Source: Geodermatophilus aquaeductus (lineage in GTDB: Bacteria; Actinomycetota; Actinomycetes; Mycobacteriales; Geodermatophilaceae). From it: a stretch of DNA of 64,000 bases. Shown in pieces: positions 54,930-58,079 of this stretch (position 1 is the first letter of the stretch; each line of letters begins with the position of its first letter). Location of the stretch: the NCBI RefSeq assembly GCF_900182545.1, contig NZ_FXTJ01000014.1, positions 1 to 64,000 on the forward strand. Direction: 5' to 3'. Both the position numbers and the translations under genes were made by a program. Below the pieces are notes generated by a model. It ran no database searches, was not told the origin of the DNA, and saw only the letters and a list, made by a program, of their open reading frames with translations.

Positions 54930-55952
54930 TCAGGGCAGGAAGAGCATGGAGTCGCCGAACTCGTGCCACAGGTAGGTGCCGGCCGCGGCGTCGTACGCGC
55001 GGCGCACCAGGTCCCGCCCGGCGACCGCCTCGAGCAGCAGCAGGTGGCTGGCCTCGGGTTCGTGCAGGCCGGTGACCAGCCCGGTCACCGCGCGCACCGG
55101 CCGGTCCGGGCCGAGCACGAGGTCGGTCCAGCCCTCGCCCGGCCGGGTGACGCCATCGTCGCCGGTGGCCGTCTCCAGCGCCCGGGTGACCGTCGTGCCG
55201 ACGGCGACCACCCGCCGCCCGGCCGCCCGCGTGGCGGTGACCAGCCGGGCGGTGACCTCCGGGACCCGGTAGCGCTCGGGCGCCGGCGGCTCGTGCAGCT
55301 CGGGGCTGGACACCCCCGCGTGCAGGACCAGCGGCACCACCGGGACCCCGCGGGCCATCAGCCGGACCAGCAGCCGGTCGGTGAACGGGCGGCCGGCGCT
55401 GGCGTTCTCCGCGCTGCCCGGCTCGGTGGCGTAGACGTTCTGGACGTCGCCGAGGGCGAGCGGCCCGCGCAGGTGGCGGTAGCGGACCGGCTCCCCGTGC
55501 CGCGCGAGGTACGCGGGGACGGCGACGGCCGGGGTCGCGACCGCCCGCCACAGCCGCCCGGGGCGGGCCGGGTCCGGGAAGCCGCCGCGCAGGACCAGCC
55601 GCACGCCGCCGGGCAGGTCCAGCGCGGCGCCGGGTTCCAGGCCGGACTCGGGGCCGTCGTCGCCGGGGCGGCGGACCTCGACCACCCAGGTGCCGTCGTC
55701 CAGCGTCGTGGACACGTGCACCGGCGTGGTCGTGCCGTCGGCCCGGCGCGCGGTCAGGCGGGCCGGCAGCGTCGCCGAGGTGTTGACGACGACGAGGTCG
55801 CCGGGCTCGAGCAGGCCGGGCAGGTCGGCGAACCGGGCGTGGGTGAGGCTGCCCGGGCGGACGGCCATCAGCCGGACGCCGTCGCGGGACAGGCCGCGGC
55901 GCTCCGGCGGCTCGGTGGCCTCCGCGCCCATGGGGACGGCGAGCGCGGTCAC
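54930..55952 (-). CDS. QueA-like protein with degenerate active-site motifs
   Basis: 340 residues, aligns along the length of S-adenosylmethionine:tRNA ribosyltransferase-isomerase: VRPGSLTHARFADLPGLLEPGDLVVVNTSATLPARL, VQNVYATEPGS, VGTTVTRALETA, VTGLHEPEASHLLLLEAVAG. The hallmark APTAGLHF of true QueA is NASAGRPF here, and HVGAGTF is HAGVSS. It is therefore probably not a queuosine enzyme, or has a changed substrate; most actinobacteria lack the Q pathway. GTG start overlaps the SDR stop (GTGA), so it is coexpressed with the SDR under the SoxR-type promoter. Confidence 0.78.
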   Translation of the reverse strand: MTALAVPMGAEATEPPERRGLSRDGVRLMAVRPGSLTHARFADLPGLLEPGDLVVVNTSATLPARLTARRADGTTTPVHVSTTLDDGTWVVEVRRPGDDGPESGLEPGAALDLPGGVRLVLRGGFPDPARPGRLWRAVATPAVAVPAYLARHGEPVRYRHLRGPLALGDVQNVYATEPGSAENASAGRPFTDRLLVRLMARGVPVVPLVLHAGVSSPELHEPPAPERYRVPEVTARLVTATRAAGRRVVAVGTTVTRALETATGDDGVTRPGEGWTDLVLGPDRPVRAVTGLVTGLHEPEASHLLLLEAVAGRDLVRRAYDAAAGTYLWHEFGDSMLFLP

Positions 55953-56638
55953 CGCGCGCCCTCGAGGTCAGCGACGCGCACGCGGGCGCCGGGCAGGTCG
56001 CCGTCGAGCAGGTGCAGCAGCGCGCGGGCGACGTCCGCGGGTGCGGCGAGGTCGGCGGGGTCGGTGTCGGGGTCGGCGGCGGCGTGCAGGTCGGTGGCCA
56101 TGTCGCCGGGGTCGACGGCGACCACGCGCAGCCCCGGGTGCTCGACGGCGAGCACGGCGGTGAGCAGGTCCAGCGCGGCCTTGCTCGCGCCGTAGCCGCC
56201 CCAGCCGGCGTAGGGCTCGACCGCGGCGTCGCTGCTGACCGAGACCACCGTCCCGCCGGCGCGCTCGAGGGAGGGGAGCAGTGCCTGCAGCAGCGCGAGC
56301 GGGGCGACGGTGTTGGTGCGCAAAACGTCCTCCAGCGCCGCCGGCGGGAGGCCGGCCAGCGGCGGCAGCGGGGTGGGGCCGAGCGTCGAGGCGTTGTTGA
56401 CCAGCAGGTCCACCGACCCGCCGGCCGCGGCGGCGAGCGCGGCACGGTGGTCGGGGTCGGCGACGTCCCCGGCCACGGCGGTGACCAGGTCGGGGCGGGG
56501 GAGCCCGGTGACGGCGGCGGCGAGGCGGCCGGCGTCGCGGGCGTCGACGACGAGCCGCCAGCCGCGCTGCGACAGCTCGGTGGCGAGGGCGAGCCCGAGG
56601 CCGCGGGAGGCCCCGGTGATCACTGCGGTGGAGGTCAT
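55949..56638 (-). CDS. Short-chain dehydrogenase/reductase, SoxR-controlled
   Basis: 229 residues. Classical SDR: TGASRGLG (8-15), LLVNNAST, SVSSD, YGASKAAL with catalytic Tyr and Lys, PGDMATD. NAD(P)-dependent oxidoreductase. The promoter is striking: -35 TTGACC (56670-56675), 19-bp spacer holding a SoxR box, -10 CACGGT (56645-56650), and the ATG six nt further on. The SDR and QueA-like genes are the probable targets of the divergent regulator. Confidence 0.9.
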   Translation of the reverse strand: MTSTAVITGASRGLGLALATELSQRGWRLVVDARDAGRLAAAVTGLPRPDLVTAVAGDVADPDHRAALAAAAGGSVDLLVNNASTLGPTPLPPLAGLPPAALEDVLRTNTVAPLALLQALLPSLERAGGTVVSVSSDAAVEPYAGWGGYGASKAALDLLTAVLAVEHPGLRVVAVDPGDMATDLHAAADPDTDPADLAAPADVARALLHLLDGDLPGARVRVADLEGAR

Positions 56639-56644
56639 GCGGTT

Positions 56645-56675
56645 ACCGTGGGACCTCGAGTCGACTTGAGGTCAA
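56645..56675 (-). promoter_or_regulatory. MerR-type long-spacer promoter of the SDR operon
   Basis: TTGACC (56670-56675) and CACGGT (56645-56650) on the minus strand, 19 nt apart, with the SoxR box filling the spacer. Over-long 19-20-bp spacers are the mark of promoters activated by MerR-family DNA twisting. Confidence 0.75.
56653..56672. promoter_or_regulatory. SoxR box
   Basis: ACCTCGAGTC-GACTTGAGGT: 20-bp palindrome with one mismatched pair, matching the SoxR consensus CCTCAAGT..ACTTGAGG in 15 of 16 arm bases. It lies between the SDR gene and the regulator gene. Confidence 0.85.
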
Positions 56676-56684
56676 GGGGGCGCG

Positions 56685-57152
56685 GTGGAGCTGCTGCCGA
56701 TCGGGGAGGTGGCCGCGCGGTCGGGGCTGGCGCCGTCGGCCCTGCGGCACTACGAGGCCGAGGGGCTCATCGCCGCGAGCCGCACGCCCGGCGGCGCCCG
56801 GCGCTTCCCGCGCTCGGTGCTGCGCCGGCTGGCGTTCGTGCGCGCGGCGCAGAACGTCGGCCTGTCGCTGCCGGAGATCCGCGAGGCGCTGGCAACGCTG
56901 CCCGACGCGCGCACGCCGTCGGCCGGCGACTGGGCCCGGCTGTCGGCGGGGTGGCGGGACCGGCTCGACGCGCAGATCGCCGCGCTCGAGCAGCTCCGCG
57001 ACGGCCTGTCCTCCTGCATCGGCTGCGGCTGCCTGTCGCTGACGGCCTGCGCGCTGTCCAACCCGGGCGACGCCGCGGCCGCCGAGGGGCCCGGCGCCCG
57101 GCGGCTGTCCCCGCTGCTGCGGCGGCTCCCGCCGGCCGGGCGCGCGGGCTGA
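56685..57152 (+). CDS. soxR: SoxR-like MerR-family redox sensor
   Basis: 155 residues. MerR HTH 1-70 (PIGEVAARSGLAPSALRHYEAEGLI), coiled coil, and the [2Fe-2S] site C111-x2-C114-x-C116-x5-C122 (SCIGCGCLSLTAC), identical in spacing to SoxR. Actinobacterial SoxR responds to redox-active small molecules such as pigments and quinones rather than running a SoxS cascade. GTG start only 12 nt from the SoxR box, so it may also affect its own gene. Tail of about 30 residues is low complexity. Confidence 0.92.
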   Translation: MELLPIGEVAARSGLAPSALRHYEAEGLIAASRTPGGARRFPRSVLRRLAFVRAAQNVGLSLPEIREALATLPDARTPSAGDWARLSAGWRDRLDAQIAALEQLRDGLSSCIGCGCLSLTACALSNPGDAAAAEGPGARRLSPLLRRLPPAGRAG

Positions 57153-57227: not shown

Positions 57228-58079
57228 ATGACCCTCATGCCCGCCGCCTTCATCGGGCACGGCAACCCGATGAACGCCCTCGAGCGCAACCGCTACACCG
57301 AGGCATGGCGGGCCTTCGGCCGCGCGGTGCCCCGGCCGCGGGCGATCCTCGTCGTCTCGGCGCACTGGTACGTGCACGCCACCGCGGTGACGGCGATGCC
57401 GCGCCCGCGCACCATCCACGACTTCTTCGGCTTCCCCGGCGAGCTCTTCGACGTCTCCTACGACGCGCCGGGCCTGCCGGAGCTGCACGAGCAGGTGGCC
57501 GACGTCGTCTCGCCGACCTGGGTGGGCGCCGACCGCGACAGCTGGGGGATCGACCACGGCGCGTGGTCGGTGCTGCTGCACGCCTTCCCCGAGGCCGACA
57601 TCCCGGTCGTCCAGTTGTCGATCAACGCGCTCAAGGGCGTCGACTACCACCTGCAGATGGGCGCGGCGCTGGCTCCGCTGCGGGAGGACGGCGTCCTGGT
57701 GATCGGCAGCGGCAACGTGGTGCACAACCTCGGCGGGGTCAGCCGGGCCCTGCCCGACGCCGGCTTCGACTGGGCGCAGCGCTTCGACTCCGCCGCCCGC
57801 GAGCTCATGCTCACCGACCCGGGCGCGGTCGGGCGCCTCGACGGCCACCGCGACTTCGACCTCGCCGTCCCCACCCCCGACCACTTCCTGCCGCTGCTCT
57901 ACGTGGCCGGGATGGCCGGCGCCACGGGCACGACGGCGGAGGTGCTCGTCGACGGCTACGCCTACGGGTCGCTGTCGATGACGTCGTACACCGTCGGCAT
58001 GCCGGCGCCCGACGCCGCGGGCAGCGGCTTCGCCGCGCCCCTCCCGGACGGGCCCCCGGCGGACGGCGCCAACATCTGA
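57228..58079 (+). CDS. Extradiol ring-cleavage dioxygenase, DODA/YgiD type
   Basis: 283 residues, LigB-like fold. Metal-binding residues: GHGNPMNAL near the N-terminus, SAHWYVH, WGIDHGAWSVL, and VVHNLG. This is the class III extradiol dioxygenase family of plant/bacterial DOPA 4,5-dioxygenase. Substrate is some catechol. ATG with GGAGGAG about 6 nt upstream. It follows soxR on the same strand with a 75-bp gap; aromatic or quinone chemistry would fit the SoxR context (inference). Confidence 0.9.
   Translation: MTLMPAAFIGHGNPMNALERNRYTEAWRAFGRAVPRPRAILVVSAHWYVHATAVTAMPRPRTIHDFFGFPGELFDVSYDAPGLPELHEQVADVVSPTWVGADRDSWGIDHGAWSVLLHAFPEADIPVVQLSINALKGVDYHLQMGAALAPLREDGVLVIGSGNVVHNLGGVSRALPDAGFDWAQRFDSAARELMLTDPGAVGRLDGHRDFDLAVPTPDHFLPLLYVAGMAGATGTTAEVLVDGYAYGSLSMTSYTVGMPAPDAAGSGFAAPLPDGPPADGANI

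Follow-up and report, generated by a model that had tools for sequence, protein, structure and literature searches.

Which genes answer to a SoxR box that lies between soxR and a short-chain dehydrogenase (SDR) gene in Geodermatophilus aquaeductus, and what would the QueA-like protein encoded next to that SDR do under SoxR control? We analysed this locus in the window, that is, the whole 64,000-nt stretch of DNA, and in related genomes. Our reading, held at a probability of about 0.7, is that a SoxR-activated divergent promoter would drive a two-gene cassette, the SDR plus a QueA-derived protein, that would act on a redox-active or redox-damaged small molecule. From the sequence we strongly infer the regulation by SoxR, and we offer the chemistry of the cassette as a hypothesis.

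The soxR-SDR promoter and its probable regulator

The locus has the following features.

56639-56684: intergenic gap of 46 nt, between the SDR ATG (56638, minus strand) and the soxR GTG (56685, plus strand)
55949-56638, minus strand: SDR gene, 229 aa, classical short-chain dehydrogenase (PF00106, E=1.3e-36)
54930-55952, minus strand: QueA-like gene, 340 aa (PF02547, 212.5 bits)
56685-57152, plus strand: soxR, 155 aa, divergent regulator (TIGR01950, 188.1 bits, above the equivalog cut-off of 116.9)
56671-56654, read on the minus strand: SoxR box CCTCAAGTCGACTCGAGG, 18 bp
56652-56673: extended 22-bp dyad around the SoxR box
56670-56675, minus strand: -35 TTGACC of the SDR promoter (TTGAC being required in the census below)
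56651-56669, minus strand: 19-nt spacer, within which most of the SoxR box lies
56645-56650, minus strand: -10 CACGGT (xAxxxT), 6 nt (AACCGC) before the SDR ATG
56644-56649, plus strand: candidate soxR -10 TACCGT, predicted from the sequence and overlapping the SDR -10

An earlier note on this DNA had described a near-perfect SoxR palindrome within a promoter of 19-nt spacer, and this description holds: eight of nine dyad pairs are complementary, in the arrangement TTGACC-19-CACGGT. The same note had the box exactly filling the spacer. It does lie inside the promoter, but it shares the final two bases of the -35 and stops three bases before the -10. CCTCAAGTCGACTCGAGG differs at one of 16 informative positions from CCTCAAGTNNACTTGAGG, the consensus taken from the E. 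coli SoxR box as quoted in the part of PMC4411124 available to us. Under a model of independent bases with the composition of the window, chance is expected to give 4e-8 boxes with at most one mismatch in the gap, and 0.008 across 5.43 Mb; the genome holds one such site. At up to three mismatches it holds five, against four for a reversed control pattern, so that such looser matches are no more numerous than chance would give. The SDR -10 is weak, A2 and T6 being its only matches to TAnnnT. Its distance from the ATG suggests that the mRNA of the SDR and QueA-like genes is probably leaderless.

The protein encoded by soxR aligns with E. coli SoxR (2zhg) at E=2.8e-40, and its segment CIGCGCLSLTAC carries the [2Fe-2S] cysteines in the pattern CX2CXCX5C, all four aligned to those of 2zhg. 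It is the single protein over the SoxR cut-off in its genome. The promoter has the same geometry as the soxR-mfsA promoter mapped in S. maltophilia, TTGACC-19-CATGCT, and agrees with the MerR-type activation that had been proposed for this site. According to the part of PMC4411124 at hand, the two systems have in common the head-to-head soxR, the TTGACC, the 19-bp spacer and the box between the elements, as well as a -10 region that is common or overlapping; the S. maltophilia promoter drives the MFS efflux pump gene mfsA from a start site that precedes the ATG by 39 nt, whereas a likely leaderless SDR-QueA-like operon follows here. By this model, SoxR would occupy the box within a 19-nt spacer too long for RNA polymerase; when a redox-active compound oxidises the [2Fe-2S] cluster, SoxR would distort the DNA, as expected from the SoxR/MerR family. 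The divergent switch would thereby turn on the SDR and QueA-like genes, whose reading frames overlap by 4 bp across the SDR stop codon (55949-55952) and which are probably co-transcribed.

Conservation of the promoter and other SoxR-type sites

We collected 133 loci with the QueA-like gene: 24 from the family, the 29 best-scoring from a phylum-wide sample and 80 named ones, which rank as the best 80 among 590 confirmed stretches and for that reason lean to close relatives. Of these loci 127 are unique, and promoter counts leave out the six duplicates and five loci without upstream sequence. A promoter was scored when TTGAC was accompanied by a fixed-register dyad with at least 5/9 pairs and by a -10 of the form xAxxxT. 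Strict dyad thresholds lost the AT-rich boxes of distant relatives (for example TTGACT-TAAAGTTGACTTCAACTTC-TATTCT) and were therefore lowered, with other spacers and mononucleotide shuffles serving as controls.

Conservation of box and spacer in relatives had been set beforehand as a test, and among the matches listed the 19-nt promoter was found at 49 of 51 non-redundant soxR-linked loci, mostly of Actinomycetota, and at none of the 51 with spacers of 15-18 or 20-23 nt. The two misses are L026, with the same geometry and a weaker dyad, and L126, where soxR lies about 436 nt away; the matches include one MAG each of Acidobacteriota (L128) and Dormibacterota (L076). With redundant loci kept, the counts among the matches listed were 53/55 soxR-linked and 18/73 unlinked, where shuffled sequences would be expected to give 0.03 and 0.00 loci. 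A2 and T6 are present in the 53 accepted soxR-linked sites by design; both were also present in every listed strong-dyad site (33 soxR-linked and 9 unlinked loci) at the stage when the -10 was not yet a requirement. The leaderless start claimed for this locus fits the ATG 6 nt past the -10 here and does not extend to all relatives: among the matches listed, the first ATG lies 6-7 nt past the -10 at 34 of 49 sites and 18-65 nt past it at the other 15, and at some loci, such as L061, it may differ from the true start.

At loci without an adjacent soxR, the 19-nt promoter precedes the SDR gene in 18 of 71 and is absent from 53 of 71 (among the matches listed); other spacers gave 0/71 at 15-18, 20, 21 and 23 nt and 3/71 at 22 nt. 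SoxR control of the cassette is thus not universal. The 18 unlinked promoters also bear on the view that the box only autoregulates soxR, with the SDR-QueA-like pair as a bystander. The divergent layout and the candidate soxR -10 overlapping the site are in keeping with that view, and in S. maltophilia SoxR acts on a site of this kind as the repressor of its own gene, as described in the part of PMC4411124 available; by analogy, SoxR bound beside the candidate soxR -10 might repress soxR here. Yet the -35, 19-nt spacer and -10 read towards the SDR gene, the same geometry is found where no soxR adjoins, which argues against mere autoregulation, and other TTGACC-plus-box sites in the family lie ahead of genes for ABC transporters and redox enzymes. 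We regard autoregulation alone as very improbable and favour activation of the SDR promoter by SoxR.

Eight loci without an adjacent soxR (L077, L080, L085, L086, L088, L090, L093 and L111) have 19-nt SDR promoters whose dyad centre is unlike that of the SoxR box; Amycolatopsis is an example of such a shifted centre. These boxes may serve another regulator, possibly of the MerR family. It could be argued on the same grounds that another MerR-family regulator, and not SoxR, uses the box in G. aquaeductus, whose genome has 17 MerR-domain matches (16 over the cut-off). But the sole protein over the SoxR cut-off is the neighbour itself, the box is one informative base from that of E. coli, and box and soxR co-occur at the 49 of 51 non-redundant soxR-linked loci, which leaves this reading with hardly any probability against regulation by SoxR.

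Presence of SoxR and of the cassette go together across the family. SoxR exceeded its cut-off in 26 of 57 family genomes, and the QueA-like gene was present in 20 of these 26 as against 4 of the 31 SoxR-negative genomes (hand count; Fisher p=1.9e-6, an optimistic value because the genomes are related). Two genomes of the same genus (G023 and G046) have neither SoxR over the cut-off nor the QueA-like gene, and in genus g8 four genomes have the cassette with no SoxR over the cut-off.

An extended box pattern with at most two mismatches was found in 21 of 57 family genomes and its reversed control in 0 of 57. Eleven of the sites away from the SDR gene were examined. All 11 have T6, and 5 have xAxxxT at 19 nt from TTGACC, so their -10s are less uniform than those of the SDR set; the evidence for the SDR promoter is independent of these weaker -10s. 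One such site is a second SoxR-type promoter in the G. aquaeductus genome (C2:762693, L035/L170), TTGACC-19-TAGCGT, with a GTG 7 nt past the -10 that starts an ABC exporter; the exporters behind SoxR-type sites in this genome and in G009 are 71% identical. A DrrA-like ABC ATPase (a match under the Pfam cut-off) follows a site in G004, and another follows a weaker site at C10:111532 of the G. aquaeductus genome. Zinc-type dehydrogenases lie behind sites in G001 and G013, and an ABM monooxygenase gene behind a site beside soxR at L161; the L162 site, also beside soxR, had no clear partner gene on inspection. Pfam supplied the names at L158, L161, L175, L170 and L036, and the remaining names were given by similarity to these, partly by eye.

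The genes at these other sites resemble in kind the known S. coelicolor SoxR targets, according to the part of PMC4146615 available to us. That regulon is likewise small and combines an ABC transporter with redox enzymes, which include an NAD-dependent epimerase/dehydratase and a quinone oxidoreductase. A questin-oxidase-like gene was also observed behind SoxR-type sites, beside soxR at L158 (a partial Pfam match) and L163 and, in two g5 genomes, at L159 and L160, where the locus holds no soxR; the six S. coelicolor targets given in the same part of that paper do not include it.

The QueA-like protein and canonical QueA

The earlier note had placed a QueA-like protein in the SoxR regulon. The name is apt in that the protein is QueA-derived; it belongs to a separate clade, is not QueA, and is encoded in a genome where no TGT match exceeds the cut-off. 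The protein falls below the cut-offs of all three NCBIfam QueA models that it matches (151.8 bits against 324, 128.4 against 267.45 and 54.5 against 588). In a quick maximum-likelihood tree, arbitrarily rooted, one branch with an SH-aLRT of 100 splits 81 QueA-like from 20 canonical rows; the nearest named relative among the matches listed is that of Geodermatophilus nigrescens. It has the Pfam family in common with QueA, the SAM:tRNA ribosyltransferase-isomerase (1vky, 1wdi and 1yy3), and 50 highly conserved positions, including R23, D24, R27, N57, E226 and R247, as well as G252-T254, R257, E260, H297 and D334. It is unlike QueA at 17 positions, where each of the two sets has its own residue fixed at ≥85%, in its SDR partner and in the lack of TGT over the cut-off in the family. 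From canonical to QueA-like, GSAAAPTAGLHFT becomes GSAEMPSAGRPFT, TNFHLP becomes TGxHEP and YRFxSFGD becomes YLWHEFGD. Net charge is -6.9 in the QueA-like and -5.5 in the canonical set, a small difference by which this crude measure does not indicate lost tRNA binding.

No TGT over the cut-off was found in the 57 family genomes, and 14 of 14 controls were positive; the best match in the G. aquaeductus genome scored 19.1 bits, below the cut-off of 26.3. We then drew the line between QueA-like and canonical proteins in 296 phylum genomes at a gap in best E-values, from 1.6e-44 to 2.4e-39. Only canonical-range QueA was found in 135 genomes, all 135 of which have TGT. The QueA-like protein was found in 62, of which 43 are without TGT and 19 with it, and all 19 carry a second QueA match; a further 21 of the 296 have a TGT match and no QueA match. 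Because 43 of the 62 sampled genomes are without TGT, a 'QueA' gene of this clade is not evidence of queuosine synthesis. Some Streptomyces, seen among the best 80 of 590, carry the QueA-like clade, and Streptomyces are reported to be without queuosine and TGT in the part of PMC9262613 available to us.

These results bear directly on the idea of an ordinary QueA that makes tRNA queuosine and is placed under SoxR to tune translation in redox stress. The PF02547 score and the 50 common positions speak for it. The three missed equivalog cut-offs, the separate clade, the TGT count of 0/57, the Streptomyces with the same clade that are reported without queuosine and TGT (PMC9262613, in part) and the second QueA match in the 19 genomes with both QueA-like protein and TGT all speak against it, and we judge it very improbable beside a QueA-derived protein of other function. 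The earlier note's remark that a QueA-like protein is not a known SoxR target stands: it is not among the six S. coelicolor target genes listed in the part of PMC4146615 consulted. Titles and abstract openings of the open-access literature gave no report of a QueA-like SoxR target or of this cassette.

A separate observation concerns 7-deazaguanines in this strain. Its genome, alone among the 57 of the family, has a strong QueC match (256.7 bits) near a TGT-like ORF; a lenient QueC cut-off of 22 bits was passed by 38 of 57, no other listed match exceeding 29 bits and most covering part of the profile. At G000:C6:130936-136044 (L009), QueC lies close to a divergent TGT-like protein and to proteins that show a DGQQR motif (by eye), a grouping that resembles a 7-deazaguanine DNA-modification island. 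Some 7-deazaguanine chemistry, of another kind than the tRNA pathway, may therefore exist in the strain.

The SDR-QueA-like cassette and its proposed role

The gene pair is nearly constant. The QueA-like gene is present in 24 of 57 family genomes, adjoined by the SDR gene in all 24 and with soxR divergent in 19. Among the best-scoring 29 loci of the phylum-wide sample, the SDR gene is present at 29 and divergent soxR at 14; among the named loci (best 80 of 590), the SDR gene lies upstream at 79, the exception, L142, beginning at a contig end, and soxR is divergent at 22. Overall, an SDR lies upstream at 132 of 133 loci among the matches listed, aligning over more than 150 aa at 128 and partial or split at four (L040, L073, L089 and L144). 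Loci beyond Actinomycetota come from MAGs assigned to Chloroflexota, Deinococcota, Bacteroidota, Acidobacteriota, Gemmatimonadota and Dormibacterota, in which binning errors are possible. The SDR has the Rossmann glycine motif (PF00106) and the S-Y-K residues of a classical SDR, and catalytic S136, Y149 and K153 are kept in 130 of 130 aligned rows. Fold family and S-Y-K residues are those of sepiapterin reductase (1nas) and ketoreductase (6yc8); unlike such classical SDRs, the partner SDRs have NAxxLG, SDA, YxxWGxYGxxK and DPGxxxT in common and a QueA-like partner.

Neighbouring genes were picked by a simple codon-composition rule, with wrong frames possible, and scanned for 57 of 77 downstream and 49 of 77 upstream picks; the 28 upstream neighbours left out comprise 19 from soxR-linked loci and 9 others. 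No family occurred in more than 4 of the 57 downstream neighbours, so the cassette seems to consist of just two genes. VOC/glyoxalase-fold genes were seen between the SDR and QueA-like genes at L105 and L124 (Pfam) and at L104 and L121 (by eye), in Rubrobacteraceae and Micromonosporaceae-type loci. On the far side of soxR, 75 nt downstream and co-directional with it, lies a LigB/4,5-DOPA-extradiol-dioxygenase gene (57228-58079), and a LigB gene lies within a short flank at 14 of 19 soxR-linked family loci.

Upstream, a NarL-type response regulator was found at 26 of the 80 named loci (best 80 of 590), in Streptomyces, Nonomuraea, Micromonospora and others, and soxR at 0 of these 26. GAF domains occurred in 16 and histidine-kinase domains in 15 of the 49 upstream neighbours scanned. 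At L117 (1260-3072), a NarL-type regulator with a GAF-domain histidine kinase lies upstream of the pair. At the 80 named loci, the NarL-type regulator (26) and divergent soxR (22) never occur together; therefore, the cassette seems to be wired to different sensors, and elsewhere it is perhaps switched by the kinase/NarL pair.

As to what the cassette does, canonical QueA is thought to depurinate and so open SAM, add an amine and close an epoxide, according to the part of PMC10491745 available to us. Since its QueA frame is conserved, the QueA-like protein probably keeps related SAM-based ribosyl-transfer/isomerase chemistry and would apply it to a non-tRNA acceptor. The SDR, NAD(P)-dependent, would reduce or oxidise the substrate or the product, and the two enzymes would work together as a self-contained unit on a small molecule that is redox-active or has suffered redox damage. 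A SoxR-regulated cassette might also make a small protective metabolite or tailor a secondary metabolite instead of detoxifying, which we consider possible though unlikely. The S. coelicolor SoxR targets include homologues of antibiotic-tailoring enzymes (PMC4146615, in the part available), in favour of such a product; but the cassette, unlike a biosynthetic cluster, has no common downstream family, and its presence in MAGs of several phyla fits poorly with one secondary metabolite.

Three other candidates were set aside: an ordinary QueA on cut-offs and TGT, soxR autoregulation alone on promoter direction, and another MerR regulator on the sole SoxR.

We tentatively suggest, at a little under even odds, a wider generalisation of the small-molecule cassette: a portable two-enzyme SAM-dependent pathway, found in several phyla, that would transfer and rearrange the ribosyl group of SAM on a small non-tRNA acceptor, with a dedicated SDR, as a defence against redox-active or redox-damaged molecules under interchangeable sensors, either SoxR or a NarL-type regulator (with a GAF-domain kinase where checked). 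The promoter logic at the G. aquaeductus locus is that of classical SoxR, and the cargo is the new part. If our reading is true, the response to redox-active compounds would gain a further class of enzyme, and a SoxR-linked, SDR-tied QueA clade outside the queuosine pathway would extend SAM ribosyl-transfer chemistry beyond tRNA.
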